64,000 bases of DNA from Bugula neritina (taxonomy: Eukaryota > Bryozoa > Gymnolaemata > Cheilostomatida > Bugulidae), in assembly GCA_964035545.1 (NCBI GenBank), contig OZ037771.1, positions 558,001-622,000 of the forward strand. Direction: 5' to 3'. Below are positions 4,001-63,877 of the stretch, one piece after another. The notes below the pieces were generated by a model. That model searched no databases, had not been told where the DNA came from, and saw only the letters and a list, made by a program, of their open reading frames with translations. A program made the translations under genes and the position numbers. Every line of letters starts with the position of its first letter. Positions within the stretch are counted from its first letter, which is position 1.

Positions 4001-5749
4001 GTTGCTAGACCTCCTTCCCGCCCTCCCGCCTTCTGCATCTTTGAATACGTCTACTTCTCTCGACCGGACAGCTATCTTGAAGGTAGGATATGATGCCATT
4101 GCGTTAATTTCCTGTAGCTCTGTAATTCGACTGCACATTTCATGTCTGGCCTCGTTTCCATCTAGGTCAAATGGTGTACACTGTACGCAAGAAGTGCGGG
4201 AAGATGCTCGCTATAGAGTCGTACGTAGAGGCTGACGTTGTGTCAACAATACCAGAATCAGCGACTCCGGCAGCTATGGGTTACTCTGAGCACACTGGAA
4301 TACCCTATGTAGAGGTAGGACAACTTCTATATTACTGCTGTATGTTGGTATTGTAATATCTACTATAATATTCATTTGTAACAGTTGAAGCTCTTTTAAT
4401 GTGTAATGCAGTGCCATTGAGTGGCACCCAATAGATATGATACTTCTATGATGTTATGCAACTTCTGCCAGGATATTAATCAGACTATTACATAACATGT
4501 TGTCACCTGTTCTAGGTCTATTGGCTTAGCCATTTTTTGTAGGTGCTGTTAACTGTGTATTTACAAGCTTACCAGCCTGCTCCTTTTTATCAACCTGTAA
4601 ATTATATCAATTACCCTCAACCTGTGATTTTTGTGAACAGTTTCAGCAAAACCTTTCCCAATCTACATTATCTTACTAATATTCACTTAACTGGACATGT
4701 TATGGTGCTCTGTAAGAACAAGTATGTTGTGTTGCTGTCACACAGGTGCTCTGTAAGAACAGGTGTGTTGTGTTGCTGTCACACAGGTGCTCTGTAAGAA
4801 CAGGTGTGTTGTGTTGCTGTCACACAGGTGCTCTGTAAGAACAGGTATGTTGTGTTGCTGTCACACAGGTGCTCTGTAAGAACAGGTATGTCGGGAGATC
4901 TTTCATTCAACCCACCACCAGACTCAGACAGCTGGCTGTGGCAAGCAAGTTCGGTCCTTATGAAGATAACATCAAAGGGAAGAGAATTGTGTTGGTAGAC
5001 GACTCCATAGTCAGGGGGAATACTATGCAGCCAATAGTAGCCCTGTTGAGGTCATCTGGTGCTCTAGAGGTGCAGTGTTTACCTCCTCTTCTACTCTACT
5101 ATCTGTTTCTATCTCATGAATTTACTATTTAATTTGTTGCTAAATCTGGTTAAATTCTTTACGCAAAATGCACTATATACTTATCTTAGCTGCTTTATTC
5201 ACCCAGGTACATGTGAGAATTGCCTCCCCTCCCATCAAGCACCCTTGCTATATGGGAATCAATATCCCAACAAAGGCTGAGCTCATAGCCAACAGAGTGG
5301 AGCTGGACAAACTCGCCGAGTATTTTGGTAATATAACCTTGACCCCGTGTTGACCTTGTCATTACCAGTTTTACGAATAGCTTGTCTAGTTAACTAATGT
5401 TTAGTTCCTCTCTCAATACTAACTGATACTTACTCTCTCTCACTATTAACTGACACTTCCTCTCACTACTAACTGACACTTCCTCTCACTACTAACTGAT
5501 ACTTACTCTCAATACTAAATGATACTTACTCTTACTACTGACCCTTACTCTCACTACTAACTGATACTTACTTTCTCACTACTAACTGACACTTACCTCA
5601 TGTTGATGTTACCAGGTGCCGACAGTGTACGATACCTCACTGTGGAGGGGCTGAAGAAAGCTGTTATGGAAGGTGCACAAGTGAACAGAGAGATAGGGCA
5701 GTGCACTGCTTGTTTAACTGGTGAATACCCTGTAGATATCACCTGGTAG
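1022..5749 (+). CDS. PPAT: Amidophosphoribosyltransferase (glutamine PRPP amidotransferase)
   Basis: Catalyses the first committed step of de novo purine synthesis in the cytosol: PRPP plus glutamine to phosphoribosylamine. Ten coding exons: 1022-1134, 1878-1968, 2220-2411, 2789-3026, 3589-3690, 3954-4082, 4166-4314, 4869-5069, 5207-5327, 5616-5749. All phases close, giving 489 aa (human about 517). Visible signatures are CGVFGC at the N-terminus, [23 protein letters not shown] and GHNGELVNA of the class II glutaminase, then [12 protein letters not shown], the PRPP-binding loop. C-terminal [10 protein letters not shown] is typical of the animal enzyme. The nucleophile Cys5 follows only MEHY, so the propeptide is very short. 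Exon 8 begins at the last copy of a 41-bp tandem repeat that contains its own acceptor. The gene converges with RNASEH2B. A possible poly(A) signal AATAAA lies at 6259-6264. Confidence 0.96.
1135..1877 (+). other. PPAT intron 1, AT-rich
   Basis: A 743-bp intron with AT-rich simple sequence (AATATTATTATAT-type words) around 1220-1420. No array or gene is seen in it. Confidence 0.6.
4705..4909 (+). repeat. 41-bp tandem repeat carrying the PPAT exon 8 acceptor
   Basis: Five copies at exact 41-bp spacing start at 4705, 4746, 4787, 4828 and 4869. Each begins GTGCTCTGTAAGAACA, the first bases of exon 8. Copies 2 to 5 are preceded by CACAG, a complete 3' splice site; copy 1 is preceded by TTATG and so lacks an acceptor. 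Each unit also contains AACAGGTRTGT or a close variant, which resembles a 5' splice site, so the unit holds a potential 17-nt microexon. Only the last acceptor keeps the PPAT frame without extra exon sequence, because 41 is not a multiple of three. Confidence 0.9.
5404..5600 (+). repeat. Array in PPAT intron 9
   Basis: Imperfect tandem copies of CTCACTACTAACTGACACTT and variants, filling most of the intron 5328-5615 and ending a few bases before the acceptor of the last exon. Confidence 0.75.
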
Positions 5750-6467
5750 TTTTCTGTAGATTCACAGGGCAACTTGCTGTATATTTCATCTGATAATTTA
5801 GTGTAGATTTTATGTGGCAGCTTGATGTGAATTTTTTAAAGAAAATTTTATAGGTTTTGCTGAAAATCTCAACAGTCATGTTTTTATTACATATATCGCA
5901 GTATTTTATGTGGTATACAGTTTATTATATACGAAACATCATGTCAAATGGTATACAGTGTTTCATCATGATTACCGCAATCTCTATTTTATGTATTTTG
6001 CTCAATTGGAAGCTTTAATCTACATTATACATGTGCTCAGCCATATCATGAAATCTCAATTCGTGTGCTAAAATTTCACTGAATTATATCACTTTTACTA
6101 TACATTGTATTATACCTCCATGGTTATTTCAACTACTTATTTACAATACAGTCTTTTTATAAAGCATGTAAAATATATAAAATTATGAACACAATATTAT
6201 AAAACAATGCATTTCCTGTTCGCACAAGTAACCTTGTATGTGCTGCTGTGTATTGCACAATAAAACATCGTGTGTAGTGTAGTATATTGCTTGCATTGTA
6301 TGGTGTGTCGCGTACATTGTACAGCATGTGGTGTACATTGTTTAGTCCGTAATGTGTCTTGCATAGCTACAGTGAATATTGCGTGACCCCAGATGGACTG
6401 ATTTGCAGTTTTACTCACACGGCAGCAAGTGAACTGTAGGTCAGATGTGGTAGCAGTGGCTGTTATA
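5750..6467. other. Convergent 3' regions of PPAT and RNASEH2B
   Basis: No coding signal is seen. This stretch must hold both 3' UTRs. It includes AATAAA at 6259-6264 for the + strand. Around 6240-6350 there is degenerate TGTGTAGTGTAGTATATTG-type simple sequence. Confidence 0.5.
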
Positions 6468-12785: not shown

Positions 12786-12927
12786 GCAAAACTATTCAGC
12801 TATAAGCAGCTGCTGCAGTTTTGCATCTTGTCTTCAATGTTTACCACACAAACCTTCTTTTTCTGTGTTTTGAGTTGGTTGCTAATAGTATTACTGTTTT
12901 ATGTGATGAGAAGTTTATTCTTATGAA

Positions 12928-12933
12928 AATAAA
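12928..12933 (+). terminator. Poly(A) signal of the RBFA-like gene
   Basis: AATAAA 143 bases after the stop codon. Confidence 0.6.
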
Positions 12934-12987
12934 ACATTTCAATGATTATCTTATGCAAAGAACTTTGCCTGGTGGCCCTTATTAATT

Positions 12988-13090: not shown

Positions 13091-13258
13091 AAATTTGTCT
13101 GTTACTGCTAGACGTCACACCAGACTTAAACCAATGAGCTTAGATTTTTTCCCTGCTTCTCCATCTTACAATCATGTAGCTTCTTAGCAGTCTGTCATTG
13201 CCTCAACGAACAATATTTTGTTGCACGCAATGCTATACAGACATTGTTGGTTTTAATA

Positions 13259-16200
13259 ATGGAGTCTATCATGAAACTAACATTCAAGGACTTGTTTGTT
13301 TGTCGTGTCTGCAATGTTAGCCAGGAAACGCCCATTTTCTTACCATGTTACCATGTTATCTGTCAGGTAATATCTGCATCTCCTTACCATGTTATCTGTC
13401 AGGTAATGTCTGCATCTCCTTACCATGTTATCTGTCAGGTAATATCTGCATCTCCTTACCATGTTATCTGTCAGGTAATGTCTGCATCTCCTTACCATGT
13501 TATCTGTCAGGTAATATCTGCATCTCCTTACCATGTTATCTGTCAGGTAATATCTGCATCTCCTTACCATGTTATCTGTCAGGTAATATCTGCATCTCCT
13601 TACCATGCTATCTGTCAAGTAATATCTGCATCTCCTTACCATGCTATCTGTCAGGTAATATCTGCATCTCCTTACCATATGATGTAATGTTCACAGGAAT
13701 GTATGAGACAAGTGCGGAACAGGAGTAATGATGGCGAGGTTAGGGTATGTGAAGAGAACACAACTAACACACAGGCTGAGTGTGTAGACACTGAGGTAAC
13801 ACCTACTAGACTGGAGCATGAAGGAGTGGATCAGAGATCAGTTGGTAAAGTAACGAGGGACAGAGAAGTAGACCACACAACTCTCTCCTGCCCTGTCTGT
13901 GGATCTCAATTCACTAAAGACTCTGTTTGCATTCTTACGTCTGAAGTGTTCCAAGACCTTGGCCTAGATAAGTAACTCTAGAGATCTTGCATATGCATAT
14001 ATGTAGAAACTTAGTCTAATGCATGGTTATTACAATAATATATTCATTAATTCTAGCTGGTCCTATCTGTAGGCACAGAGTAGTTAACATAACTTAACCA
14101 TTTTGCTGAAGCTAATGTTTAAGTGAGATACTTTGGTATGAAAACCTAAGTTACTAAAGCTGTAAGAACAAATAGTAATAGATATAACACATGATTAGTG
14201 CTTAGTTAATGACTGTGTGACGTTATGTTATATAAGACCAGCAGTGGAGCCCTGTAGCACAGTAGCTGAATCGTCGCATACTCCATCCGAGGAGACCACC
14301 TGGTGCACTGTCTGCTCTCTACCTCCAGCATCAAAGGTGCAGTTAACTTAGTGATTCTCTTCCACTCTCTGCTACTACTTGTTGTGATGCATGTTGAAAT
14401 ATGGTGGCTACTAATGAAGTGGTTAGCTTTTTATTGCAGAGAGTTGAGACGACACATCAGTGTGTAGATTGTTTTGACTTCCTGTGCGAGGAATGCTCGG
14501 CAGCGCATCAAAGGACCCGACAGACACATGGCCATGTTGTACTTAAACTATCAGATATACTGGAAGGAAGTCCCGAGCTTGAAATGAAGAAAAGAAGTTG
14601 CCTCCCCTGTGCTAATCATACACAAAATGCATTGGAGCTTTACTGCATGCCTTGCGAGAAGGTATATCATTGTGGCAACTTTGTGGGCAATAGCAGCCCT
14701 TTAATTAATCAGAGTTTAAATTATTGGAATTCTCAGATAATAGACTTATTATATTGTATTATTATACTTTAAATACCTTTTTATATCTTGACTTTTGGTC
14801 TAACATGCTGCACACACATTTATATATTTATACCTCATACATGTAGTGTATATTATGTCTGTCTTTTATGCATGTTTATTATGTGTATTCATTGCCAACA
14901 TTTATACAATAAATCTGTTATAATGTATGTTTATTGTGTATATTTTAGCTGCTGTGCATAAAGTGCAAGCTAATTGATCACAATACTCATATCTGCTCAG
15001 AAATTCATGCGGCCGCAAAAAGTCATCGTGGGAAGATAGCCGCTGACAGGATCATTGAAGACACAAAACGCAATATACTGATGGAGAGTTTAGAGAGGTG
15101 CTTAGAGGTGAGGTGATGTGTGTGTTGACTATGAGATCTGTCAGGTCTACTGTGTTGTAAACATGTAATTATACTGTGCTGTAGCTATTGGCTATTATGT
15201 AGACCTCTAAACTTGCTGTGAGTGAGGAGAAGCACCTGCTGACTAGACTGGATGACAGACTGTCACAACTGAAACACCAACTAGACATCTATTACAAGCA
15301 CTTGTTCACTCGTGTCACCCAGCATTACCAGCAGTTCAAGGAGCTCAACCAGCAGGTGCTCTTTTATTTTCACTGCAAACAAAGTATTTTAAACTTTTGA
15401 CTTCTATGATATATATACTTGATCTATATACCATAGGTTATCACATTTAGACAGCTGATGAGATTCTAATGAGCGAGAGGTGAAGCACATAAAGTTGTCG
15501 TCTTTTTAATGTTTCAATATTGTCAGGATACTAAGGCTAGCCTGTGTTCTTTTAGAAAGAAGAGGAACTACGAAAGAAGCTGTGTAATCTGAAAAGCTTG
15601 CAAATATTATCTGAGAGAATAGAGGTTGATGCTACTGACATCCAAGTACTTGCTAGCAAGCACCATTACACCAATAAGCATAAGGTAGAGCATATTATGT
15701 GGAGTATAATTAATATAGAGAGAGTATGAATAGCGTGAGGTATATAGTAACACGTCATACTAGAGTATAATAATGATATTGTAGAAGTTATGTTCCCATG
15801 TCTATCCCCCAACCTTACCCCAATTAGACAGCCTCTCTTTGAATGTTCCAAACATCACAGAGTCAGCGGTTGGTATGCTTTTTGGGAATCTGGTTACAGA
15901 CGTACATAAAGGTAGGGATTCTTATGGGAAGTTGTACTGTGGTTTTATAGCTCTTAGTGAGCAAGGGCAGAACCTATACATGCTCTGTGTGTTACAGTCA
16001 AGGGGGACAGAGCACGCCCCGTCTCGCCTTGTAGAGCAGATGAGACAGTAGGAACTCATGCTAAACCCTGCGAAGATGGAGAGATCTTGCCCCTACTCTC
16101 GCCTTCTGGGAGAATATACGAGGCTTATCACGAACTCTTACATTGTGAGTCAAAAGTTGTCAATTGCTTATAATTATAAAACAAAGACCGGCTGCTTTCA

Positions 16201-19200
16201 GCCATTAAATAAGTGTTAACATGCATCTCTTGTCTGTTGCTAGCCGCTGAAGCAGGAGAAGTGGAGGAGAGGTTAAAGCAGGTTGAGGCGGGGGGTCATG
16301 CACCTCCCCCACTTCCTGTAACAGAGCAGGTGGAGACTGGAGACTGCGCTAGGAAGATGAGTTCTGCCAGGATACAGAATCCTGTGATTGGAAGTGCAGA
16401 GCTGATGTGGAGCAGTAAATCTCTCAGCAGTATGTTGCTTTTTACCTGTTATATACTGTACTGTAGTAGTATATACCAGCTGTGTGTATATACTAACTGT
16501 GTGTATACTAACTGTATGTGTATACTGCCAGTATATATACTGTAGTAATACTACCTGCTATATACTGTAGTACTACTAACTGTGTGTATATACTAACTGT
16601 GTGTATACTGTACTGTGTATATACTGTAGTACTACTAACTGTATGTGTATATACTAACTGTATGTGTATACTAACTGTGTATATACTGTAGAACACGCCT
16701 CTGTTGTCAAAGTGGCCGTCACATCCGATGCTGATCTTGTGTTGGCCGTCTTCTACCGGTTTTACAAAAATCAGGTAATTTTATTTTCATATTCATATAG
16801 AGGTTCTGTCTACCCATTCCCATTCCCTTGTATTAGCATTTCCTGTTTCCTGTATTCCTCTAATCTAAAACATTCTAGATGTTTATCACGGCAGATCTAA
16901 ATTAAGATCAATTTATTTATGCTCTATAGAAGTGTTGTAGGTACTTAGTGTACTGTAGTTTCCTGTGCTCTACTGTAGTGTATAGTGTACTGTAGTGTAT
17001 ATAGTGTACTGTAATGTATATAGTGTACTGTAGTGTATATAGTGTACTGTAGTGTATATAGTGTACTGTAGTGTGTATAGTGTACTGTAGTGTGTAGTGT
17101 ACTGTAGTGTATATAGTGTACTGTAGTGTGTATAGTGTACTGTAGTGTATATAGTGTACTGTAGTGTGTATAGTGTACTGTAGTGTGTATAGTGTACTGT
17201 AGTGTATATAGTGTACTGTAGTGTGTATAGTGTACTGTAGTGTGTATAGTGTACTGTAGTGTACTGTAGTGTGTATAGTGTACTGTAGTGTGTATAGTGT
17301 ACTGTAATGTATATAGTGTACTGTAGTGTGTATAGTGTACTGTAGTGTGTATAGTGTACTGTAGTGTGCATAGTGTACTGTAGTGTGTATAGTGTACTGT
17401 AGTGTGTATAGTGTACTGTAGTGTGCATAGTGTACTGTAGTGTGCATAGTGTACTGTAGTGTATATAGTGTATTGTAGTGTATATAGTGTACTGTAGTGT
17501 ATATAGTGTACTGTAGTGTATATAGTGTACTGTAGTGTATATAGTGTACTGTAGTGTGTATAGTGTACTGTAGTGTGTATAGTGTACTGTAGTGTATAGT
17601 GTACTGTAGTGTATATAGTGTACTGTAGTGCGTGTAGTGTACTGTATGTAATGTAGGTGCGAAACTGTGATAGAGTGAGACTGATGAAGATTAATTCAAG
17701 TGGAGAGGTGAAGATGGACATCCCGTATGGTAACATCATACACGGGTTAGCTGTGGGCAGCCATGACCAGATTGTCATCTCTGGCGGAGAGGTTAATGGC
17801 AGCCATATTGATGTGCTTTGGACCAATCGTAAAGAGGTACGAGATACGCTGTAATAGTGGAGCATATACCACACAGTGTTCATTATAACTAGACCTATGC
17901 TATGCTATGCTATGCTATGCTATGCTATGCTGTGCTGTGCTGTGCTGTGCTATGCTATGCTATGCTGTGCTATACTCTGCTATGTTATGCTATGCTATGC
18001 TATGCTATGCTATGCTATGCACTGTGAGCTCACCTACTAGTATATTGTCTAATTTAATATTTCTTTAATATTGTTTTGTATTTGCAAACATATCTGAAGG
18101 AACATCTTTCTGCAACCAATCCAGGCAGTTGTGTGTGTTTTAGAGAGCTAGCTTCCAACCTAGATGTGGTACGGGTGGGGTAGCTGTAGATGGCTCTAAC
18201 AACATTGTCATTGCTGGAGCCAAGACTATTGAATACTACAGGATGGAAGGTGAATTTGTCAGTTCCTTCTCTGACGTGGTGCCCAATCTAGGAGATAAAT
18301 ATGGAAATCAGGACTTTGAGTTGATTAGAAAGGAGATAGCAGTTGGGGTGGATGACAGCGTATTTGTGAGTGATGCCAACACTAACAGCGTCAGAGGTGA
18401 GAGACTTGAGATTTTTCTGCTTTGTTTTGATAACTCAGTTTGCCTTTGTTGTACTCAAATCACTTTGCCTTTCCTTAATGTCTCAAGTCACTTTAGGTTA
18501 CTCTAGTAAAGGCGAGCTGCTCTTCACTTATGGACATCAAGCCCCGCATATCTTACCAATAATTCACCCCAGAGGCATTTCTACTGACAAGTTTGGGCAC
18601 GTTCTCATCTGTGACGCAAGTGGCCCCTGTGTAAGTTGTAACTAGTGTAATACATAAATATAATGTACATAGAAAGTATATTATATATTCAGCAGATATA
18701 ATATAATATATAAAAGGAAAGCATGTGCTTACATAATACTTCTTATGCAATACTAGTATGATGTAGTAGAATACAATGCCCTGCTTTGCATATTGCATGT
18801 CTCCATCTTATAACACATTTGTGCAGTCATCTATGTGTTGGTATAAAGTATAAATAAATGTATTGGCAGGTTCACATAATAAACAATCTCGGAGCCTTCC
18901 AGTGCAAGATATTGGAGAATGAGATCAACGGGCCTAGAGACGTGGCCTGTTTTAACTCCGCCTTCCTAGTCATTGGTAAGATTAGAATATTCTATGCACT
19001 AATTTATTCTCTTGTATTTCCCTTTTTATTTTAGGCTGTGGGGCATAACTTGTATTGATATTGCTATTTGCTATCAACTTCTGTATCAACTAATCTAAAA
19101 GATAAGTTTTGTGAAATACCTATAGTTGCCGCTCTGTGTCAGGTGTTGAGAAGGTGGAACTTATTTTACAGGACAGAATTCTGGTCGCTTGCAAGTCTTT

Positions 19201-20740: not shown

Positions 20741-23700
20741 TTATATATCCTCAGGCCACTCGAATGGTTCAGGCGCGTCAGGCTCAACCCCTTCATCTTC
20801 TTCTACTTCTTTCTTTGGACCACCAGCTATAAATCAACGACTCCAACAAATAAGTACATGACGGTTAATTTCTACGTTTTTGGCATCAGTGATATTATCT
20901 AAACCGTTGATTAGTGACGAGCATCTCACAAGCACTTATGAAGCAAATGAATTAACGCAGAGTTTAGGAGTTATTCCCTCAACTTGCTTAATTTTCAGAC
21001 TATTTTCATTGGACAAATGGTGACCGGAGAGTGTGTAACTGATGTTGAGAACTAATCACGATATAAAGCCACACAGTAACACATAATGCAACATATTTCA
21101 AATTGATTTTTTAGACATGGTGATTTAAAAGTGTGTAACTGATGTGATAGCCTGGTTTGGAACTCATTTTAACATGAAGACGTATAATAACACAACACAT
21201 ATAATATAATACATATAATAATAATACTTAATACTATAATAATATATTATTGTGGTTATAAAATATAACAACCAGCAATATACACTACCTTTCACAACTT
21301 CCACCAGTTTTTCTTCCTCACCAGGTTTGGTATCCTTGAGGATAAGTATGCCTCCTGTGCTAACAGGTTTTATTGAAACATAACGAGCTTTGTCAGTGGG
21401 CATGCTCAGCACCTGCAACCAATTAGAGCGCTCGATAAAAACAGGTAGATTAATATGTAATATTTTACAATCAAAATATTGGAACAAGTCAGCTTTACAG
21501 TACACTATATACACTACAGTACACTATATACATTACAGTACACTATACACACTACAGTACACTATACACACTACAGTACACTATACACACTACAGTACAC
21601 TATACACACTACAGTACACTATATACACTACAGTACACTATAGACACTACAATACACTATACACACTACAATACACTATACACACTACAGTACACTATAC
21701 ACACTACAGTACACTATATACACTACAGTACACTATACACACTACAGTACACTATATACACTACAGTACACTATATACACTACAATACACTATACACACT
21801 ACAGTACACTATACACACTACAATACACTATACACACTACAGTACACTATACACACTACAGTACACTATACACACTACAGTACACTATACACACTACAGT
21901 ACACTATACACACTACAGTACACTATACACACTACAGTACACTATATACACTACAATACACTATACACACTACAATACACTATACACACTACAGTACACT
22001 ATACACACTACAGTACACTATACACACTACAGTACACTATACACACTACAGTACACTATACACACTACAGTACACTATACACACTACAGTACACAATACA
22101 CACTACAGTACACTATAGACAGTACACTATGCACACTACAGTACACTATACACACTACAGTACACTACACACTACAGTACACTATACACACTACAGTACA
22201 CAATACACACTACAGTACACTATAGACAGTACACTATATACACTACAGTACACTATACACACTACAGTACACTATACACACTACAGTACACTATACACAC
22301 TACAGTACACTATACACACTACAGTACACTATATACACTACAGTACACTATATACACTACAGTACACTATACACAATACACTATACACAGTACACTATAC
22401 ACACTCCAGTACACTATATACACTACAGTACACTATACACAATACACTATATACACTACAGTACACTATACACACTCCAGTACACTATATACACTACAGT
22501 ACACTATACACAATACACTATACACACTACAGTACACTATACACACTACAGTACACAATACACACTACAGTACACTACACACTACAGTACACTATACACA
22601 CTACAGTCTGTAGCTCACCTTCAACTGCTGTCTCATCACTCGAGATGGGTTGGACAACAACTCAAATGATGGCTCCTTCTCCTTTACCTTCTTCTCTTCA
22701 GTTTTTGCATCTTTTGCTCCGTCTTTCTTCTCGCTCTGAAAAATCAACACACTATAATCTACTACATCTCTTGGAGTTGTCTACACTCTGTAGTTGATAT
22801 AACGCAGCATAATGTACTATATCTCTTAGAGTTGTCTACACTCTGTAGTTGATATAACGCAGCATAATGTACTACATCTCTTGGAGTTGTCTACATATAT
22901 TTAAGTAGGAGTAATCTATATCAGGTAGTCAAGTTTCACCCCAGTGACACAACTTACTGTATCCATTTTCTCAGCTTTGCTAACTTCCGTATCAGTGGCT
23001 GGAGTTTTCTCTCCTTTCTTCTTCTTGTGCTTGGCTGTGATGCTGAGAATGGCCGTCTCTACCTTCTCTCTGGTCTTATCCTTTCTTTCTTCCAGTTTGG
23101 CAGGGTAACCAAAGAGGGAGGGCTTGGCATTGCTGGTCACTTCTAGCTCTGGCATCTGCAACCCATACACCACACTTGAAACATACTTTATATAACATGT
23201 GACATACTACAACAGGTGATCTACTACAACAGGTGACACACTACAACAGGTGACACACTACAACAAGTGACACACTATAACAGGTGACACACTACAACAG
23301 GTGACACACTATAACAAGTGACACACTACAACAAGTGACACACTATAACAAGTGACACACTACAACAGGTGACACACTAAAACAGGTGACACACTATAAC
23401 ACATGACATCCTACAACAGGTGATATACTACAACAGGTGACACACTATAAATGTGACGTACTACAACAGGTGACACACTACAACAGGTGACACACTATAA
23501 ATGTGACGTACTACAACAGGTGATCTACTATAACATGTGACACACTACAACAGGTGCTTTGGGCACCTCACCTTGAGGTCAGAGTTGAGGCAGATGATGG
23601 CCGTGGGAGAGAACGCGAGAGAGAGGAAGTGACTGAGTGGAAACCAGTACCAAAACTGTTGAAATACGAGAAGTCCGACAACTGCTTCCATATTCATGTG

Positions 23701-42100: not shown

Positions 42101-45100
42101 CTATGCTGCTGAAAAGTAGTATCCAGGGCTGCTTTGGGGTCTCCTGTCATCACCTGACCCGCTGCCTTCCTGCTAGGGTGATGACCCCACATTCTTGATG
42201 TGGTCAAGTCCCACACACACACTCACGCACACTCACCGTGGCAAAACATACCTGCAAAAAGTGTAGCAACTCTGCTATCCCACACCATTAGCTAGCACGT
42301 GTTGCTAGCTAACAGTCTTACTTACATTTATTATAATAACAAGCTTCTAGCAACAGTTCTTCCCTTTTGTGTCGGCCTCCTGTTATGTCATCAAATAATT
42401 GAAGCCACAAATGCATAACCTTTGCAAGTTTCATTGGCATCTTTTGGAGTATATTATTATCATTAGAGCTTACACAGTTAAACTACAGTTTATATATATT
42501 ATACTGTGTTGTGTATACTGTGTAGTGTGTACTGTGTAGTGTATACTGTGTAGTGTGTACTCTGTAGTGTATACTGTGTAGTAGTGTATACTGTGTAGTG
42601 TGTACTCTGTAGTGTATACTGTGTAGTGTGCACTGTGTAGTGTGTACTTTGTAGTGTGTACTGTGTAGTGTATACTGTGTAGTAGTGTATACTGTGTAGT
42701 GTATACTGTGCAGTGTATACTGTGTAGTGTGCAGTGTATACTGTGTAGTGTGTACTCTGTAGTGTATACTGTGTAGTGTGCACTGTGTAGTGTGTACTTT
42801 GTAGTGTGTACTGTGTAGTGTATACTGTGTAGTAGTGTATACTGTGTAGTGTGTACTGTGTAGTGTATACTGTGTAGTGTATACTGTGTAGTGTATACTG
42901 TGTAGTGTGTACTGTGTAGTGTGTACTCTGTAGTGTGTACTCTGTAGTATATACTGTGTAGTATATACTGTGTAGTGTGTACTGTGTAGTATATACTGTG
43001 TAGTATATACTGTGTAGTATATACTCTGTAGTGTGTACTGTGTAGTGTATACTGTGTAGTGTGTACTCTGTAGTGTATACTCTGTAGTGTGTACTGTGTA
43101 GTGTGTAGTGAATCATTTCCTGTAACTTGATGGTGGGCTAAGGTGTTCGTAAACAAAGCACTCGAAAGGTCGCGAGATCAGCTCTTCCTTGAGGCGCTGT
43201 TGAACCAGAAGACAACAATTTCTTGTTGAATATTTGTGACAGCAGTTTAGTCTGTTAACTAACTTGTACATTGCGGGAGGGCAGTTCATGTGCCGTACTG
43301 CATGGGTTTTGTGGCATCAGTCTACTGCCTCAGGATATGACTTGTTTTTGTTCTGGACACATGACTAAAATTAGCTAGACATACTCGCTGCCTTCATGTG
43401 ACATACTCGCTGCCTTCATGTGACATACTCGCTGCCTCCATGAGACATACTCGCTGCCTTCATGTGACATACTCGCTGCCTCCATGAGACATACTCGCTG
43501 CCTTCATGTGACATACTCGCTGCCTTCATGAGACATACTCGCTGCCTTCATGAGACATACTCGCTGCCTTCATGTGACCAGGCATTACGTTTATATATAC
43601 TATACACTAGCAGTAATATACTATACACTAGCATTAATATATTATACACTAGCAGTAATATGTTATATACTAGCAGTAATATATTGTATGTTGTTTATAA
43701 ACAGTAGAATAATATATTAATAGCATCTAGCCACATTAACATCTCTAACTCTGGTTATTAATAGTGTTTTATGTTCACCTCATTATTTATTGTTTCTCAT
43801 AGGTCACTGATTGGAGGTTGTTACCACAAGACTTGCAGGTCAAGGGCACTCTACCTTCCTGTAAATATGGTGCTGTGTATTTACTCAGACTATTTGGTAA
43901 GTGTTTGTAGTCTAATGAGAGCTGACTGTAACGCTGTCTGCGTATTAACATGTTATACTTGATGTTCTCATCTGTTATACTCGATATTCTCATCTGTTAT
44001 ACTTGATATTCTCATCTGTTATACTTGATATTCTCATCTGTTATACTCGATATCCTCACCTGTTATACTCGATATTCTCATCTGTTATACTCGATATTCT
44101 CATCTGTTATACTTGATATTCTCATCTGTTATACTTGATATTCTCATCTGTTATACTCGATATCCTCATCTGTTATACTCGATATTCTCATCTGTTATAC
44201 TCGATATTCTCATCTGTTATACTTGATATTCTCATCTGTTATACTTGATATTCTCATCTGTTATACTTGATATCCTCATCTGTTATACTCGATATTCTCA
44301 TCTGTTATACTCGATATTCTCATCTGTTATACTTGATATTCTCATCTGTTATACTCGATATTCTCATCTGTTATACTCGATATTCTCATCTGTTATACTT
44401 GATATTCTCATCTGTTATACTCGATATTCTCATCTGTTATACTCGATATTCTCATCTGTTATACTCGATATTCTCATCTGTTATACTTGATATTCTCATC
44501 TGTTATACTCGATATTCTCATCTGTTATACTTGATATCCTCATCTGTTATACTCGATATTCTCATCTGTTATACTTGATATTCTCATCTGTTATACTCGA
44601 TATTCTCATCTGTTATACTCGATATTCTCATCTGTTATACTCGATATTCTCATCTGTTATACTTGATATTCTCATCTGTTATACTCGATATTCTCATCTG
44701 TTATACTTGATATTCTCATCTGTTATACTCGATATTCTCACCTGTTATACTTGATATTCTCATCTGTTATACTCGATATTCTCATCTGTTATACTTGATA
44801 TTCTCATCTGTTATACTCGATATTCTCACCTGTTATAGTCAAACTCCCGGACATACTATCTAAAATGAAGCTGTCGAATGAGTTAAGAAGTTTTCTCCTC
44901 AGTGTGTTCCATTACATATTCAGGTCAGTGAACCTGTTGTGATATTTCAGTTACTCTCACTATACTGTGATATTTTAGTTACTCTCACTATACTCTGATA
45001 TTTCAGTTACTCTCACTATACTGTGATATTTCAGTTACTCTCACTATACTGTGATATTTCAGTTACTCTCACTATACTGTGATATTTCAGTTACTCTCAC

Positions 45101-45497
45101 TATACTCTGATATTTCAGTTACTCTCACTATACTGTGATATTTCAGTTACTCTCACTATACTGTGATATTTCAGTTACTCTCACTATACTCTGATATTTC
45201 AGTTACTGTCACTATACTGTGATATTTCAGTTACTCTCGCTATATTGTGATATTTCAGTTACTGTCACTATACTGTGATATTTCAGTTACTCTCACTATA
45301 CTCTGATATTTCAGTTACTCTCACTATACTGTAATATTTCAGTCACTGTCACTATACTGTGATATTTCAGTTACTCTCACTATACTCTGATATTTTAGTT
45401 ACTGTCACTATATTTTAGTTACCTGATAGAAGAGAAGAAGAGATTATTTGACAGCGTATACTACGTCCCTCTGCCGGTATCAGCGTCAGCACTCTGA
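36112..45497 (+). CDS. MSL3: MSL3-like chromodomain and MRG-domain protein
   Basis: Chromatin subunit expected in an MSL-type histone H4K16 acetyltransferase complex. Thirteen exons: 36112-36195, 37129-37199, 37297-37323, 37474-37566, 37745-37895, 38492-38584, 39083-39201, 39376-39510, 39823-39947, 41114-41265, 43803-43896, 44839-44923, 45419-45497; 435 aa. The N-terminal chromo-barrel reads GDHVLCYEPTPYRAKVLYEAKIVEVV and LRVNDWNK. Exon 3 is a 27-nt microexon. The MRG domain starts at VTIELQEELKEVLESDF and is interrupted by a Ser/Thr/Gln-rich linker (exons 9-10), as in MSL3 rather than MRG15. It resumes at VTDWRLLPQD, YGAVYLLRLFVKLPDILSKM and YLIEEKKRLFDSVYYVPL. Start choice: ATG at 36112 is in frame and gives the family N-terminus, but ATACAG just after it could be an acceptor. 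The exon 5 donor (GTGTTT) is weak. AATAAA is at 45719-45724. Confidence 0.85.
36230..36900 (+). other. Cryptically simple DNA in MSL3 intron 1
   Basis: TAATACTAATAGTAATAGTA-type words dominate 36330-36620. No coding signal is seen in the intron 36196-37128. Confidence 0.7.
38024..38503 (+). repeat. 40-bp tandem repeat carrying the MSL3 exon 6 acceptor
   Basis: Twelve nearly perfect 40-bp copies. Each contains ATATAATACAG followed by GTAGAAGGTGAA, which is the exon 6 acceptor and first four codons. Acceptor AGs end at 38051, 38091 and so on to 38491; the last is the real one. Using any earlier acceptor reads into an in-frame TGA (after GTG) within the first unit, so only the last copy is productive. 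Confidence 0.95.
38640..39015 (+). repeat. Array in MSL3 intron 6
   Basis: Imperfect copies of AACTATAACTCCAACTATGT and AACTATGACTATAACTATGT, filling most of the intron 38585-39082. Confidence 0.9.
39965..40450 (+). repeat. 19-bp minisatellite in MSL3 intron 9
   Basis: About 25 copies of TCAAGTATATTCCCTTTAG, starting about 15 bases after the exon 9 donor. Confidence 0.95.
40451..41113 (+). other. Rest of MSL3 intron 9
   Basis: About 660 bases without array or recognisable coding signal. Confidence 0.45.
41566..42095 (+). repeat. 45-bp minisatellite in MSL3 intron 10
   Basis: About twelve copies of a 45-bp unit containing CTCTATGATATATCTACAG and TATGATTATATATCTATAG, nearly identical. The unit is a multiple of three and open in one frame (15-residue repeat MIYLQYDYISIVNTS), but no splice context joins it to MSL3. 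Confidence 0.95.
42488..43112 (+). repeat. AC/GT-rich minisatellite in MSL3 intron 10
   Basis: Copies of TGTGTAGTGTATACTG with TCTGTAG and GTAGTAG variants. The words resemble the 19-bp unit of the TRIM and PSMD1 arrays but the period is 14-16 bp. Confidence 0.9.
43380..43580 (+). repeat. 22-bp minisatellite in MSL3 intron 10
   Basis: Nine copies of CATACTCGCTGCCTTCATG plus three bases, with TGTGA or TGAGA ends. Confidence 0.9.
43585..43700 (+). repeat. Short array in MSL3 intron 10
   Basis: Four to five copies of TATACACTAGCAGTAATATA. Confidence 0.85.
43955..44838 (+). repeat. 22-bp minisatellite ending at the MSL3 exon 12 acceptor
   Basis: About 40 copies of TGTTATACTCGATATTCTCA plus two bases. 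In the final copy TGTTATAC has become TGTTATAG, and that AG (44837-44838) is the splice acceptor of exon 12, so the array ends exactly at the junction. Confidence 0.95.
44935..45418 (+). repeat. 28-bp minisatellite carrying acceptor-like words before the last MSL3 exon
   Basis: About 17 copies. Each contains TGATATTTCAGTTACTCTCA; the real acceptor is TATTTTAG followed by TTACCTG at 45411-45422. Every unit therefore presents a TTTCAG|TTAC acceptor that resembles the real one. Confidence 0.93.
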
Positions 45498-48446: not shown

Positions 48447-48450
48447 AATA

Positions 48451-56661: not shown

Positions 56662-59600
56662 ATGGATGATCAAGAGATACTCAATTTGAATGTTGGAGGA
56701 ACGAGGTAGATGTAATACACAAGCGCTTGTAGATAATATGTAGTGCAGATAAGGCTTGTGTGCTTTTTATGTGAGATTTGTAGAACTTTGCAATGCAATT
56801 AATGCATAGAACTTGTTTTATGCTCTCTTTTAGATTGAAATAGTAAATATATGTGCATCTCTGGTGTTGGTGTAAGTGTAAGTGTAAGTTGACACAATGC
56901 TTCATCATAAATTGTCTGCATAATGTTTTTTTTATTTTTTACTTTAGTTATTGCAATTACTTTGCTGCTTAAAAGACTGTGAATTTTTGTAGATTCTCGA
57001 CGTCAAAACATACGTTGACTTCTGTACCCGACTCTTTCTTTTCGTGTTTAATTAGTGGGCGGATTCCTTCTATCAAAGACGATACTGGAGCAGTAAGTAA
57101 CTCTAGCTATACTCTAGCTGTACTCTAGCTGTACTCTAGCATACTCTAGCTATGCTCTAGCTGTACTCTAGCATACTTTAGCTATACTCTAGCTGTACTC
57201 TAGCATACTCTAGTATACTCTAGCTGTACTCTAGCATACTCTAGCTATACTCTAGCTATAGTGCTATACCCATTACTTATGTTTTCTAAAAGCAGACCAT
57301 GTTGTTGTAGATATTCATTGACAGAGACCCCAGTTTGTTCTCCTGTATTCTTAACTACCTTCGGACTAAAGACATTGACGTCAAGTAAGTACCAACACCT
57401 AAAGTAAGTACCAACACCTAAAGTAAGTACGGCACTCAAATTTTGTGACTTATAGAGCATGTGGGGTAGAGTTACTACAGTATAGATGAATATTAAGAGT
57501 TGATGAGTTTTGACTATCACAGGAATCATGGCGTAGTCACACTGAGGAAAGAGGCCGAGTACTACGGTATCACTCCACTAGTCAACCAACTCACTCTCTG
57601 CAGTGAACTAACAGCAGCTTCCTGCGGGGGAGTTCTCTTTCACGGCTTCATACCTCCTCCCGACCTCTCTCCACTAGATGTCACCCACTCAGAGCCGTTC
57701 CGATGTCGACAGGAAGTGCCCGGTGGTAGTGGAGAAACATTTCACTCGAGTAAGCAGTGTGTGACTCATCACTGACTGTGAATCTGCATGTGTTAATTTA
57801 AGTTATATTCACCCAGTTGTCATTTGAAGAGTGTGCTCCTATATTTCAGTCTGAATTCGTTCTGTTTTCAGTACCAGTTGCACAGAAATTGAAATCAGCC
57901 AATCAAGTCACACTAATTAAGGGCCACCATAATTGGATAGCTGCTGCTTATAATCACAACATATGCATTTATAAGTAAGTATATATGTCAGTGTAAGTAC
58001 TAATATATATATAAGTATATCTGTAAGTGTATATGTTAGTGTAAGTACTAATATATATGTAAGTATATATGTAAGTGTATATGTCAGTGTAAGTACTAAT
58101 ATATATGTAAGTATATCTGTAAGTATATATGTCAGTGTATATGTCAGTGTAAGTACTAATATATACGTAAGTCTATCTGTAAGTATATAGGTCAGTGTAA
58201 GTACTAATATATATGTAAGTATATCTGTAAGTATATATGTCAGTGTAAGTACTAATATACAAAGAGTGAGTGTATATAAACAAGTCATTTTCATAATTAT
58301 TGCTAGAATTAAAGAGAGAAGCCTGTGGCACTGCATCTGGACCAGTCCCTACATGGAGCAGCCTATTGAGAGAATAGCCATTAATGCTAAGGCCCAGTCG
58401 GGGGCGTCACAAGAGAGCACTCACAGGCTAGTCGCTGCTTCATATGGCAGCTCTGTGAGAATGTGGCAAGTCACTAGTGCTGGGGAGGCTACAGACATCG
58501 GTAATATGTCGTATATACCTGTAATATATCATATATATGCCGGTAATATATCATATATATACTGGTAATATGTCATATATATATGCTGGTAATATATCAT
58601 ATATATACCTGTAATATATCATGTATACCCTTAATACATCATATATACTGGTAATATACCATATATATCTGTAATATATCATATATATATACCTGTAATA
58701 TATCATATGTACTGGTAATATCTATTGTCGTCACATATATATTACTATCACATATATTATTGCAATATAATACTACGTAATAATATAATCTATTCTTCTA
58801 TAGGACTGGGACCAGGTAAGCCAACACTCAATGATTTCTGCTCTCATAAAATTAAAATAGTTTTCCAATCTCCAGATACGATAATAAATGCACCTCTTTC
58901 CTGTGTCGCTAGTTGAGAAAATAGTTTCACTACTTCCTGTAGTAGTGTTACTATGTAATAGTGTTTCTACTTACTGTACACAGTGTTACTATATAATAGC
59001 GTTTCTACTTACTGTACACAGTGTTACTATGTAATAACAGTTGTATTTATGCAACAATGTGAATAATGATGATACTTTTGGCCACAATATACAGTATTAT
59101 AATATACTCTAGTACTGTAGTGTTACTGCAATACTGCGGTGTTGTCGTGTTCTGGCCTAACCTAGTGTAGAAATAGTCTAGGCAGGTCTTAGCAGGTCTG
59201 TAGGGCCTCTATTTCTTCTGGTAGTGTGACTCATCAGTGCATACATTGCATTGTGGGATAGTGTGATAGAACTATCTCAGGAGTTGCCCCTCCTGACATA
59301 CTTGTTATTTATGGCTGCATAAGTTGGTGCAGCTTTTGGCCACCTTTGGTAATCTAAAAGATTAAATTTTATTCTATATTTTCAAACAGCTCTGTTAAAA
59401 CTAAATTTTCCACCATCCCCAAAAAAGTTTTAATAATAAGAGTAAAAGTAGCCCAAGTTCATATTCATCTTTTCCAATTATCCCCCCTCATTTCCTATAT
59501 TTGATGATTTGCCCATTTTCAAGCTCGCTGGAACCCTGTTGTGATTTTTCTGCCTGCTTAATTTTGAATTTTTTGTTATGAAATTTGTTTAGTTTAAAAA

Positions 59601-62600
59601 AATGTTTTATAACTTCGGAGAGAATCTGTAAATGTTTTCTCTAAGAAAGTTAGGCTATGCAAGTTCAAACGGATTTTCAGTAACTTTGAGCTAACATTCA
59701 TTACGTAACGGAGTTGTGATTAAATTGACACACTTCCACGTTCACCAGACATAAACTATTGTCATCATCACACAACGCTGACTCTGGTTTGATTCACGCA
59801 ATTAACTGACTAACAACTATAACTCAGTGCGAGTGTATCACCTCACTCCCTCTGACAGTCTGTCTAACCAGTGTAACTCTTAGTATATAGAATACTTGTG
59901 TGCTCTTAGTATATAATACTTGTCTGCTCTTGACACAAGTGGAGGACAACTCTTTACTTGTCTCAAAATAATGCCGCTGTTGTTGAATGATGGTATAAAA
60001 TTATGCTCTATTTGTTTTTGATGTTAATTAAATCATTTATCGAAATTTTTTTAATTATGCTATTTGATTTTTATATAATCAGTGTGCTACACTATATATT
60101 CAATATAATACAATAAAACAATGTTTAATTATATTACATATCCAGTATGATAGAAAATCTATGTTTAACTATAGTATCTTAATAGAATATTTTCTCTTGT
60201 GATTTTCCAGGAACGTTCAATCTTACTGTATGTGTGGATGAGCTAATATTTATTGGTCAACAGTTGGTAGCCTTAGGAAAGTCAGGGAAGTTGGGGGTGT
60301 GGCACTCCATGTCCCAACACTGGCAGGTGAGTTCATCAACACTATGCTCTCTCATGTCTACACACACTGCTGCTATTTCAACATCCCTGAACCACCAGGG
60401 AGCACCTGCACACCACACTCTTGGCACCACTTCTTAGCCAAGTGTAAACTATTAGCATAGTTGGCCCACTCTCAGCATTCACAGCCCATATGCCTATTAT
60501 CTGTTATGTTACAAATTTAGTTATTGTCTTCTACTCTCTGTATCAAATGAAGCTAGCATGAAACTAGCGTAAATTTCGTTATATCTGGAACGACATGTTT
60601 CTATATTGAGGTGGGATTGCAGATTTCAATGTCGGCGACACCCTTGTTAGTTTCTAATTTGATTGCTGATTTCTAGTTGCTGATTGCTAGTTGTGGGTTG
60701 CTGTATTTTTGGACGTCTTTCAAATTTAAAGTTGTGTTTAACAATGTTGGTTTTGGCCCTCAGTCAGTTTGTAAACTGATAGATTATCCCACAACAGTTT
60801 GAGCTCCTTAGGTTAGCACATCCGTGTTCGTCTCTGCATCATCTACTCTGTCGCTATCCGCATCTCGTCTGCTAGGTTTCCCGTCATCTTCTTACTCAAT
60901 GACAGTAACATGATAACTTGAGTATAGTAAAAGAAAATAGCCATGTTTTGGTTGTGGACGATGAACCAGGACCTGCGCTGTGTTTAGCTCCGGTCACAAT
61001 CTCAAGGTCATTCCAGTGTCCGGGTCGTACCGTTTATTCTTAACCTTCTTGTATTGAGTTATGCTTTATATCCTCTTCATCTCATGTTTTAGTTGAGGCT
61101 TTTTAGTGATGCTTGCCTGCGTAGACTACTAATCAGTTGCTGGGGTTTGTTGTGTTCACTTTCCAGTCTGTTTTTATTCTGAGGAAAACACAAATCCTGT
61201 TGCATGTAACCATAATTCATACTAGCATTTTGACATTAAAGTTTACCGAGTACAACTATACTATAGGAACTTTGAGTGTGAGTTACATTGTAAGTTAGTA
61301 CTACTGCTACTAAACACTATAACTGTGAGTACTACTGTTACTGAGTACTATAACTATGAGTACCACTATTACTGACTACTATTACAGTTGGTTCTACTCT
61401 CTCTAGGTTCAAGATGTCACTCCAATCACCAGTCACGACGTTGCCGGAACCAATTTGCTCCTTGGCTGTAGAAACGGCTCCATATATTACACAGACATGC
61501 AGAAGTTCCCTTTGAGAATGAAAGATAATGATTTGTTAATATCTGAGCTGTTCCATGATGTAAACCAGCACGCCATTACAGCTCTTAGTGTTTACGTCTC
61601 ACCTACGACTAGTAAGACTTTATAAATATATAGATATATTATATAATATCATGTAGTAGTCACTATTGTATAATACCATGTAGTAGTCACTATTATATAA
61701 TACCATGTAGTAGTCACTATTATATAATACCATGTAGTAGTCACTATTATATAATATCATGTAGTAGTAACTATTGTATAATATCATGTAGTAGTCACTA
61801 TTATATAATATCATGTAGTAGTCACTATTATATAATACCATGTAGTAGTCACTATTATATAATACCATGTAGTAGTCACTATTATATAATATCATGTAGT
61901 AGTCACTATTATATAATACCATGTAGTAGTAACTATTATATAATATCATGTAGTAGTCACTATTATATAATACCATGTAGTAGTAACTATTATATAATAC
62001 CATGTAGTAGTCACTATTATATAATATCATGTAGTAGTCACTATTATATAATACCATGTAGTAGTCACTATTATATAATATCATGTAGTAGTCACTATTA
62101 TATAATATCATGTAGTAGTCACCATTGTATAATATCATGTAGTAGTCACTATTATATAATATCATGTAGTAGTCACTATTATATAATATCATGTAGTAGT
62201 CACTATTGTATAATACCATGTAGTAGTCACTATTATATAATATCATGTAGTAGTCACTATTATATAATACCATGTAGTAGTCACTATTGTATAATACCAT
62301 GTAGTAGTCACTATTATATAATACCATGTAGTAGTCACTATTATATAATACCATGTAGTAGTCACTATTATATAATACCATGTAGTAGTCACTATTATAT
62401 AATACCATGTAGTAGTCACTATTATATAATATCATGTAGTAGTCACTATTATATAATACCATGTAGTAGTCACTATTATATAATATCATGTAGTAGTCAC
62501 TATTACATAATATTCAGGTATAAGTGGTAATAAGGTAGAGCTGGCCTATGGTACAGAACATGGCACAGTAAACATCATTATCCAGCACCCAGAGACGGTG

Positions 62601-63877
62601 GGCAGGGGGCCACAACTCTTTCAGACCTTTTCTGTCCACAGGTGCCCCGTCAAGTGTGTACATCTCTCCGACAAGCACTTGCTCTCAGGTGTCTATTTAT
62701 ACTAATATTGTCAGCAAACGCTACACCTAATGTTTGATACGTAGTAGGTGTAATGGAGGTGTGTGGATCACATACACACATGTTGTATTCCAAACAGCAC
62801 ATTGTACTTTTGTTGAGTACGCAGCATATAGATTAGTTCCTTCTCTCAGTCTGTATTCTGTTATAATATTCACATCTTATCTTAATTTAGAAATTTTAAC
62901 TTTTAACTGAAATATCTGACAGTGATGGCATCTGTCTAACACATGTAAATATTTGAGATACTCTCTAATCATTATGTGGAACATTGCGTGATGCATTTCA
63001 AAATAACAAGCCCGTGATTAAGTGTCAGAGGAATTAGGAAAAGCTGAACTTCCTTTTATTATTGTATAAATATATGTACTGTTATACTACATTACTGCTA
63101 CTAAATTATATTATTATATGAATATATATAGAATTGCTATATGAATATATATTATATTACTAAATAAATATACTGTAGCTATGTTTCAGTGTGCACCGAG
63201 TACAATCACGTCAGAACTTGGAGTCTCACAAGATTCAGGGGAATGATCTCTACGCAACCTGGTCCTATACCCAAATCATCCTTCAAACTCTTATCTTTAG
63301 AGGATGAGGATCCATTGAATAGCTACAGAGCAGGTAAAGCTTAGCCTCTGTTTCCAGTATTCCTATGATATGCTGTGAGGGTAGTATGGATAGCACTCCA
63401 CTTAGGTTTTAGTAAAAGTTATTTGTGTGATAAAGGTTGCTTAAGGTAAAGGAGTTGTTCTCTCAATATATACCATGTACTCGCATGCCCAGATGTGTCA
63501 GACTACAAGGTGAGACATGCTATACCATGGAATTGATATCTAACTGCCCTACTAATTCATTGCTTCTAAATGTTGTTAGAGTCACAGTAAAACTTTGCTA
63601 TTGAGATAGTAAGCTGCAGATAACTACCAATACATGTGCTGCAGATAACTACCAATACATGTGATGCAGGTAACCACTTTGGGCCGTATGGTGACGCCAA
63701 TGATGAGCAGCAGATTCTCGTACAGAAGGTTGTGCCGGAGACTGACTCTGTATACATTCGTCTGGCGGCTACCGGCCACACTGTATGTGTCATCAGGTCA
63801 TGTGACGGCAGTGACATCACTTCCTTCTTTGTACACGACTGCGAAGGGTCCAGCAGACTGGGTTCACCTCCTCGCAG
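56662..63877 (+). CDS. KCTD3: KCTD3/SHKBP1-type BTB (T1) and WD-repeat protein, 3' end outside window
   Basis: Vertebrate KCTD3 modulates HCN3 channels and SHKBP1 binds CIN85; the family has an N-terminal T1/BTB tetramerisation domain and WD40 repeats. Eleven exons seen: 56662-56705, 56993-57092, 57311-57384, 57523-57749, 57872-57974, 58307-58500, 60211-60326, 61407-61611, 62518-62688, 63190-63333, 63670-63877; about 528 aa so far and open at the right edge after PPRR, in phase 2. T1 domain: [45 protein letters not shown] and [11 protein letters not shown]. Then [13 protein letters not shown] and [17 protein letters not shown]. Propeller blades follow: [68 protein letters not shown] and [22 protein letters not shown]3 and SHKBP1 are vertebrate paralogues, so the single invertebrate gene is the shared orthologue. 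Confidence 0.93.
57093..57265 (+). repeat. Array at the KCTD3 exon 2 donor
   Basis: Copies of TACTCTAGCTGTACTCTAGC, starting about ten bases after the donor GTAAGTAA at 57093. Confidence 0.9.
57385..57430 (+). repeat. Triplicated donor after KCTD3 exon 3
   Basis: GTAAGTACCAACACCTAAA is repeated at 19-bp spacing, giving strong donors GTAAGTAC at 57385, 57404 and 57423. The first follows the exon; using the second or third would add 19 or 38 nt and shift the frame. Confidence 0.9.
57975..58262 (+). repeat. Donor-like array after KCTD3 exon 5
   Basis: Copies of GTAAGTATATCTGTAAGTAT and CAGTGTAAGTACTAATATAT. The array begins with the real donor GTAAGTAT at 57975 and repeats GTAAGTA/GTAAGTG words about fifteen times. 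Confidence 0.92.
58501..58722 (+). repeat. Donor-like array after KCTD3 exon 6
   Basis: Copies of CTGGTAATATATCATATATA. The array begins at the real donor (exon ends ATCG, intron GTAATATG), so most units present a G|GTAATAT word. Confidence 0.92.
58723..60210 (+). other. Rest of KCTD3 intron 6
   Basis: About 1.5 kb. A 12-nt segment 58803-58814 flanked by TCTATAG and GTAAGC could be an optional microexon adding GLGP; otherwise no coding signal or array. Confidence 0.4.
60327..61406 (+). other. KCTD3 intron 7
   Basis: About 1.1 kb; short ACTACTGTTACTGAGTACTA-type simple sequence at 61290-61390 before the acceptor. Nothing else is recognised. Confidence 0.4.
61640..62512 (+). repeat. 27-bp minisatellite filling KCTD3 intron 8
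   Basis: About 32 copies containing CATGTAGTAGTCACTATTAT with ATCATG/ACCATG variants. It fills almost the whole intron 61612-62517, from about 30 bases after the donor to 5 bases before the acceptor. The unit is nine codons long and open on the minus strand (YYMxLYNSD repeats), which is an artefact of the period. Confidence 0.95.
62689..63189 (+). other. KCTD3 intron 9
   Basis: About 500 bases, AT-rich near the 3' end (63050-63180), without array. Confidence 0.4.
63612..63677 (+). repeat. 25-bp tandem repeat carrying the KCTD3 exon 11 acceptor
   Basis: Three acceptor copies ending at 63619, 63644 and 63669. The unit reads GCTGCAG then ATAACTACCAATACATGT; the real junction is GATGCAG then GTAACCAC. 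The exon start is thus copied in degenerate form in each unit. Confidence 0.85.

Follow-up and report, generated by a model that had tools for sequence, protein, structure and literature searches.

In amphioxus, tandem repeats spanning the exon-intron boundaries of Adh3 have been named "mirages"; they also occur in globin genes and have been incorporated into a model of intron gain (PMC3087553). A further paper lists amphioxus mirages for the Adh, globin, troponin C and PGBD5 genes and holds splicing to be undisturbed by them (PMC3902484). Here we analyze a stretch of 64,000 nucleotides (nt) of the cheilostome bryozoan Bugula neritina, hereafter the window, which comprises bases 558,001-622,000 of contig 7 (C7) in a 215.8-Mb assembly of 295 contigs. 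The mitochondrial COX1 contained in this assembly shows 99% identity, across the full query, with that of the species. In this window and in a sample of the remaining genome, we identified twelve minisatellite arrays that repeat the splice site of their own intron and, judged from the DNA sequence alone, conform to the structural definition of mirages, together with a more numerous group whose ends lie within the intron, 5-25 nt from the junction, and which in array-rich genes crowd against the splice sites.

The twelve arrays resemble the amphioxus mirages (Adh3, globin BflGb6 and BflGb9, troponin C, PGBD5) in having units composed of an exon edge plus an intron edge, at either a donor or an acceptor, in the presence of several surplus splice signals, and in the high similarity of their units. 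They differ in belonging to another phylum, in amounting to twelve clear cases in 158 introns rather than scattered genes, and in being accompanied by the larger set of exon-free arrays. The potato RNA-dependent RNA polymerase (RdRp) gene shares the duplication across an exon-intron boundary (PMC4974935), whereas the Bugula arrays are multi-copy and lengthen existing introns. Ordinary intronic minisatellites, or variable number tandem repeats, are comparable in unit length, copy number and non-coding character, but the expanded arrays of Bugula crowd the splice sites in array-rich genes. Arrays that copy splice sites are thus already known from amphioxus, while the crowding of expanded, exon-free arrays at intron ends looks new and is clear in some genes only. 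In the open-licence literature, the matches listed include no bryozoan report of such arrays, and among their titles and abstracts no animal but amphioxus is named for junction-spanning minisatellites. Nor do these matches include any account of exon-free arrays crowding at junctions, which fall outside the mirage definition. The older B. neritina draft is put at 214 Mb, with high heterozygosity and a repeat content of 25.9%; the searched main text of two bryozoan genome papers does not contain the term "intron", and that of the older draft does not contain "tandem" either.

Genes in the window were modeled with a dynamic-programming gene finder seeded with conserved exons, and its output was curated by homology. 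Array ends were measured against 58 curated window introns, a set that leaves out stretches without secure exons (~5.8-13.2 kb as well as portions of TRIM, receptor 1 and MSL3). The products of PPAT and PSMD1 align over most of their length with human amidophosphoribosyltransferase and 26S subunit 1, respectively, and both alignments are gapless at the array-bearing junction. They fix the junctions of two mirages and show which copy the conserved protein requires, in favor of the explanation preferred below. Matches were obtained to the MRG domain with the joined MSL3 exons, to the BTB domain with KCTD3, and to RING-finger models with TRIM exons 1 and 2. These domain matches do not by themselves establish the gene names MSL3 and KCTD3, nor that two receptors are class A G-protein-coupled receptors (GPCRs); both are assumed here, in part following an earlier note on this DNA.

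The earlier note had described five repeat units that contain an exon edge plus its splice site, and four of them are borne out by the curated models (splice-site copy counts include the working site). At the acceptor of PPAT intron 7/exon 8 (4704..4891, plus strand), a 41-bp unit is repeated 4.6 times at 97% identity; the last 23 nt of the array are exon 8, which starts at 4869, and the acceptor is present in four exact copies. The donor mirage of TRIM exon 1/intron 1 (13348..13678, plus strand; 36-bp unit, 9.2 copies, 97%) has its first 19 nt in exon 1, which ends at 13366, and contains eight exact donor copies, the RING finger resulting from the joining of 13366 to 13697. The donor mirage of PSMD1 (33673..34146, minus strand; 33-bp unit, 14.4 copies, 99%) lies for 24 nt within the exon 34123-34390 and presents 11 exact copies of the donor at 34123. 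Its unit is open in frame and measures 11 codons, and in Watersipora PSMD1 the same motif occurs once. A length difference between haplotypes was sought via the PSMD1 exon, of which a single copy was found in the assembly. At MSL3 exon 6 (38024..38503, plus strand; 40-bp unit, 12 copies, 99%), the last 12 nt of the array belong to the exon starting at 38492, and the acceptor is present 12 times in exact copies. The fifth case, at the acceptor of KCTD3 exon 11 (63613..63674, plus strand; 25-bp unit), proved marginal, having 2.5 copies and just 5 nt of overlap with the exon starting at 63670, and its own splice site is not repeated as defined below.

The arrays that had been described as starting at a donor or ending at an acceptor were also recovered. 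Downstream of a donor, the array in receptor 1 intron 1 (26136..26743, plus strand; 15-bp unit, 40 copies) begins at the last base of the exon, which ends at 26136 (donor distance -1). In KCTD3, all on the plus strand, arrays are found at the donor of intron 3 (57383..57430; 19-bp unit, 2.5 copies, 100%), at that of intron 5 (57975..58259), where GTAAGT is present in 16 copies, and at that of intron 6 (58501..58721), whose site is repeated by the 9-mer version of the test only. For introns 5 and 6 the higher-scoring repeat-finder rows that were used start at +29 and +11, others starting at the donor, so that the measured distances are conservative. Among arrays ending at an acceptor, that of MSL3 exon 12 (43951..44837, plus strand; 22-bp unit, 40 copies) stops 1 nt short of the exon at 44839, with its own splice site repeated by the 9-mer test only, and that of MSL3 exon 13 (44938..45412, plus strand; 28-bp unit, 17 copies) stops 6 nt before the exon at 45419, its unit bearing T[C/T]AG|TTAC in 17 copies. 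The TRIM exon 11 case was confirmed as well; a TRIM array at 16548..16691 (plus strand) runs precisely up to the exon at 16692 and repeats the acceptor of that exon.

Further arrays leave a short unrepeated margin. In TRIM, a 19-bp unit repeated 36 times (16978..17646, plus strand) ends 10 nt before the exon at 17657; in PSMD1, on the minus strand, a 19-bp unit repeated 60 times (21496..22607) begins 11 nt past the donor, and a 21-bp unit repeated 22 times (31554..32008, 97%) lies 5 nt from the donor. A KCTD3 intron is filled by 32 copies of a 27-bp unit (61637..62512, plus strand), with 25 and 5 nt left over.

The Tandem Repeats Finder (TRF) output for the window comprises 106 rows, reduced to 63 non-overlapping arrays with a period of at least 7 that cover ~22% of the window. 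Throughout, TRF periods <7, overlapping rows (the best score being kept), introns >6 kb and predicted exons scoring <3 were dropped, as were, in all but the earliest counts, arrays with >60 nt of exon overlap. From the middle tests onward, a 5.4-kb PSMD1 intron was also excluded by hand; of the two arrays it carries, which were dropped along with it, one is counted under receptor 1. This intron (window 25045-30442, minus strand) hosts a nested receptor gene on the plus strand (~26.0-29.8 kb), by our own reading a class A GPCR. The sample from the remaining genome consists of 24 segments, each 10 kb long and taken at a fixed position, and of five CCT genes located by a Pfam search, in total ~0.26 Mb in which one array-rich gene, SMC2, is dominant. 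Its exons are predictions, some of which give plainly recognizable proteins by the author's reading (SMC2, CCT, an MTHFD1-like enzyme), and more generally the gene models beyond the homology-checked genes are predictions. Two sampled stretches are of another nature: in L028 (G000:C6:7000001-7010000) almost the entire 10 kb is one 20-bp satellite, and L030 (G000:C7:5000001-5010000) resembles a long terminal repeat retrotransposon and is devoid of tandem arrays. L028 was left out, and L030 was left out of the final counts; it is still included in the own-intron shuffles, in the coverage, distance-density and collapsed-length counts and in one of the counts that cover the CCT genes, to which it contributes no arrays but false introns, and in the training of the gene finder. 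The number of arrays is 71 in the early own-intron shuffle, 75 in the middle tests and 77 in the final counts, and several tests share the same arrays. Unit lengths of the counted arrays range from 11 to 123 bp, with up to 60 copies.

For each array we asked whether, leaving the junction itself aside, the 12-mer at its own intron's splice site is found two or more times within the array with at most one mismatch. This was observed for 12 of the 77 arrays, in seven cases for the donor and in five for the acceptor, while the splice sites of other introns (every third), used as a control, are repeated ~0 times; a 9-mer version gives 14 against 1.1. The twelve comprise nine of 41 arrays in the window, one of 17 in SMC2 and two of 19 elsewhere, the three cases among the 36 arrays outside the window being located in L015, L020 (SMC2) and L023. 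DNA duplication at exon-intron boundaries, as the earlier note had proposed, is therefore observed at both kinds of site and beyond the window. If tolerated duplications were placed evenly across introns, edges included, 6.2 such arrays would be expected (P=0.025), with 4.4 against nine in the window, 2.0 against one in SMC2 and 1.2 against two in the other loci. Arrays that repeat their own splice site are thus real and mildly (~2x) commoner than tolerated random duplications.

Eight of the 77 arrays cross a junction by at least 5 nt. In the set of 75 arrays, the eight crossing ones have a median unit identity of 97, compared with 90 in the other 67 (P=0.0015), and being more homogeneous they look younger. 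No array among the 77 repeats both its own donor and its own acceptor, which indicates that an existing intron has been lengthened at one end.

The second component of the pattern is the crowding of arrays against splice sites, counted for array ends at most 25 nt from a splice site ("near" arrays). Expectations are given as ranges, the lower value holding for arrays wholly within the intron and the upper for arrays allowed up to 30 nt of free exon overlap. In the window, 28 of 41 arrays are near, against 7.6-13.7 expected from even placement over introns in which arrays are collapsed to one unit (P 4e-12 and 5e-6). When each array is shuffled in the unrepeated space of its own intron, the expectation rises to 18.3-21.8 (P <5e-5 to 0.003); this narrowing of the excess indicates that a large part of it is the geometry of short, array-filled introns. 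Within 10 nt, the same shuffle gives 18 observed against 10.0 expected, or 17.1 if exon overlap is free (P=0.43). The crowding in the window, asserted by the earlier note as contact of arrays with exon edges beyond chance, is hence confirmed, with a size that depends on the null chosen.

When window and sample are combined, the own-intron shuffle yields 46 near arrays of 75, against 29.8 expected or 36.1 if 30 nt of exon are free. The excess is seen at acceptors (29 near against 18.4-19.7; P 0.0003-0.005) and less distinctly at donors (24 against 18.4-19.6; P 0.03-0.12), and within 10 nt there are 26 against 16.2-28.2, the lenient null leaving no excess. Even placement over collapsed introns gives 47 of 77 near, against 11.2-20.9 (P 1e-20 to 5e-10). 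Since the window was chosen as striking, a fairer test is provided by the sampled loci, which jointly contain 19 near arrays of 36 (4.7-8.8 expected), 14 of these 19 coming from SMC2 alone, where 14 of 17 arrays are near against 5.0-8.1 expected. In the other sampled loci, five of 19 arrays are near against 2.2-4.2 (P 0.06-0.42), a result that does not sustain the genome-wide process envisaged by the earlier note; for arrays in these loci with at least five copies and a score of at least 100, the count is four of seven against 0.8-1.5.

The array load differs sharply between genes. In the SMC2 gene (L020, G000:C4:1000001-1010000), arrays are present in 13 of 18 introns, whereas the counted introns of the five CCT genes have two, both in L037, where one lies at a distance of 8 nt from a donor. 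The share taken up by arrays with a score of at least 100 is, for predicted introns, 9.9% in the sample and 25.7% in the window; for non-genic DNA it is 2.9% and 12.8%, and for predicted exons 2.4% and 1.9%, respectively. The exon coverage of 2.4% in the sample means that coding repeats are not absent. As a separate observation, L014 (G000:C2:1003772-1004316) contains a 45-bp unit repeated 12 times in a predicted exon as an in-frame, 15-residue protein repeat, so coding minisatellites occur too.

Most near arrays do not contain exon sequence: 33 of the 46 stop 5-25 nt inside the intron. For the 38 near arrays that do not cross the junction, the neighboring exon edge is unlike the unit (mean z 0.09 over 12 nt and -0.02 over 16 nt), while the junction plus 8 or 12 intronic bases is somewhat like it (z 0.67 and 0.89). 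The possibility that near arrays are decayed mirages with a faded exon part was rejected on account of this exon-edge result, and the suggestion that units hold the exon edge as a rule does not extend beyond the few junction-crossing arrays. Seeding by splice motifs was likewise rejected, the scores of sense and antisense units showing no bias: among 75 units, those scoring >3 are three sense and three antisense for donor-like motifs, and two and none for acceptor-like motifs, which leaves the idea of targeted splice motifs without support. A search for branch-point enrichment near acceptors found CTRAY in three units sense and one antisense, amounting to nothing. R-loops, another mechanism put forward in the earlier note, find no support either: they favor a G-rich sense strand, whereas the units near junctions are pyrimidine-rich on that strand (fraction 0.57-0.58), about like array-free intron edges (0.54-0.61).

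We favor, with a probability of about 0.55, an account in which ordinary tandem duplication expands up to a barrier set by the splice signals. Introns of B. neritina would acquire frequent short tandem duplications, from which slippage or unequal exchange may build minisatellites. Within exons, selection would remove most of them; those straddling a junction would survive, in effect neutrally, because the copy adjacent to the exon could still be the one spliced, the surplus copies becoming intron. As many introns appear minimal apart from their repeats, a growing array would fill the space between the splice signals, and array ends would pile up against the 5-25 nt presumably needed for splicing, any further intrusion being selected against. 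In keeping with the role given to short introns, arrays are found in 24 of 49 introns that are <120 nt when collapsed (a count that includes L030), and 22 of the 24 lie near a junction, which the geometry requires. Also in favor of this account are the repetition of an array's own splice site in 12 of 77 cases (although no more than about twice the even-placement expectation), the greater homogeneity of junction-crossing arrays, the higher array coverage of introns than of exons or non-genic DNA, and the occurrence of arrays of this kind in amphioxus genes.

Several observations weigh against this account. The full tolerance of junction crossing is doubtful: in the own-intron shuffle with 30 nt of exon free, crossing by at least 5 nt is seen in seven of 71 arrays against 17.9 expected. 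Introns whose unrepeated sequence amounts to at least 300 nt contain 37 arrays, of which 15 are near against 2.8-5.6 expected (nine of 16 in the window, two of four in SMC2, and four of 17, with 1.3-2.6 expected, in the others), and short-intron geometry leaves these unexplained unless such introns were still short at array formation and later lengthened by insertions. In a comparison made after the data had been seen, 37 of 50 arrays with at least three copies are near, compared with 10 of 27 two-copy arrays (P=0.003; by subset, P=0.04 and 0.18 for introns of at least 300 nt and for shorter introns, respectively, and P=0.02 and 0.08 inside and outside the window). A model of uniform birth does not predict an excess limited to expanded arrays, and growth in copy number alone does not use up the unique sequence that separates an array from its junction. 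The simplest added assumption that accommodates both the long-intron excess and its limitation to expanded arrays is that introns were short at the time of array formation; a bolder one is a hotspot of expansion.

Such a hotspot close to the junction, where the edge of an exon-bound nucleosome or transcription- or splicing-coupled breaks would cause arrays to arise and above all to expand within ~25 nt, is possible but on balance unlikely. It accounts directly for the near arrays of long introns and for the confinement of the excess to arrays of at least three copies. It also agrees with the density of array ends per 10 kb of collapsed intron, which is 52 at -4 to 10 nt (with a denominator that counts positions 0-10 only) and 46 at 11-25 nt, and falls to 13 at 26-50, 3.4 at 51-100 and 0.9 at 101-200 nt. 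Yet the density is back up to 10 at 201-500 nt, only five of 19 arrays are near outside the window and SMC2, the two arrays of the five CCT genes reside in one gene, and the units are free of sense-strand bias in splice motifs. The corresponding general proposition is that in this lineage tandem repeats have hotspots of expansion, as opposed to birth, at splice junctions or within a few dozen bases on their intronic side, where a cellular process acting on exon ends (chromatin edge, transcription or splicing) would drive minisatellite growth and intron lengthening gene by gene; it is one we offer tentatively and would not bet on.

That the arrays mark new introns, born when AGGT proto-splice sites were duplicated in tandem, was raised as a possibility in the earlier note and is very improbable here. 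The route has been proposed by the amphioxus authors (PMC3087553) and reported in potato (PMC4974935), and AGGT is present in the units of PPAT, TRIM, PSMD1 and MSL3. It requires, however, a donor and an acceptor derived from two copies of one segment, a configuration that the one-sided arrays do not display, and most near arrays show no exon sequence; nothing here supports it. The boundary duplications themselves, affecting either the 5' or the 3' side, conform to the mirage pattern, as do the units that include boundary and splice site in the twelve arrays, in contrast to most near arrays.

Dispersed mobile minisatellites or introner-like elements inserted beside exons are already disfavored and have a similarly slight chance of being correct. 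In their favor, one 19-bp unit is common to the TRIM intron array at 16978-17646 and the PSMD1 intron array at 21496-22607, in neighboring genes on opposite strands and in the same sense orientation. But an exact dimer of this unit, the one shared unit searched genome-wide (exact matches only), occurs at three places within 110 kb of C7, the only one beyond these two introns being C7:471,547-471,603, which is not the distribution of a near-identical element at many unlinked loci. Moreover, the units of the mirages are built from the local exon edge and intron, and in an all-versus-all comparison of 110 arrays, those of at least 90% identity among the 60 of 66 matching pairs listed fall within a single locus or window, the one exception being an 83-bp pair between unlinked loci. 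An assembly artefact, for which arrays of high identity are a classic risk, is hardly credible, as we infer the assembly to be the published PacBio HiFi one (216.00 Mb, 9 chromosomal pseudomolecules, ~132-fold coverage and 27.37 Gb in 2.82 million reads; PMC11480708), whose reads of ~10 kb compare with 1.1 kb for the longest array of the window.

Two observations made in passing concern other parts of the assembly. At L004 (G000:C6:11174072-11175412), a near-intact COX1 with nine TGA codons lies in a nuclear chromosome, where it probably reflects either a recent transfer of mitochondrial DNA to the nucleus or a misjoin. Six small contigs (G000 C71, C90, C139, C186, C195 and C211) carry chaperonin genes in which TAA and TAG occur in frame while TGA codons are few, and we take them to be probably derived from an organism with a ciliate-like code.

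Overall, the interpretation from which this work started is partly supported, and its biological interest lies in what the arrays may make accessible. Those with 4-17 near-identical splice-site copies constitute a natural test of how the spliceosome chooses among copies. In a genome rich in such arrays, the lengthening of introns, and intron gain as the duplication model has it, would become observable in progress, with a HiFi assembly and relatives of the species available for this purpose. Finally, if it is true that expansion concentrates at junctions, there would be an unsuspected link between the ends of exons and the instability of repeats.

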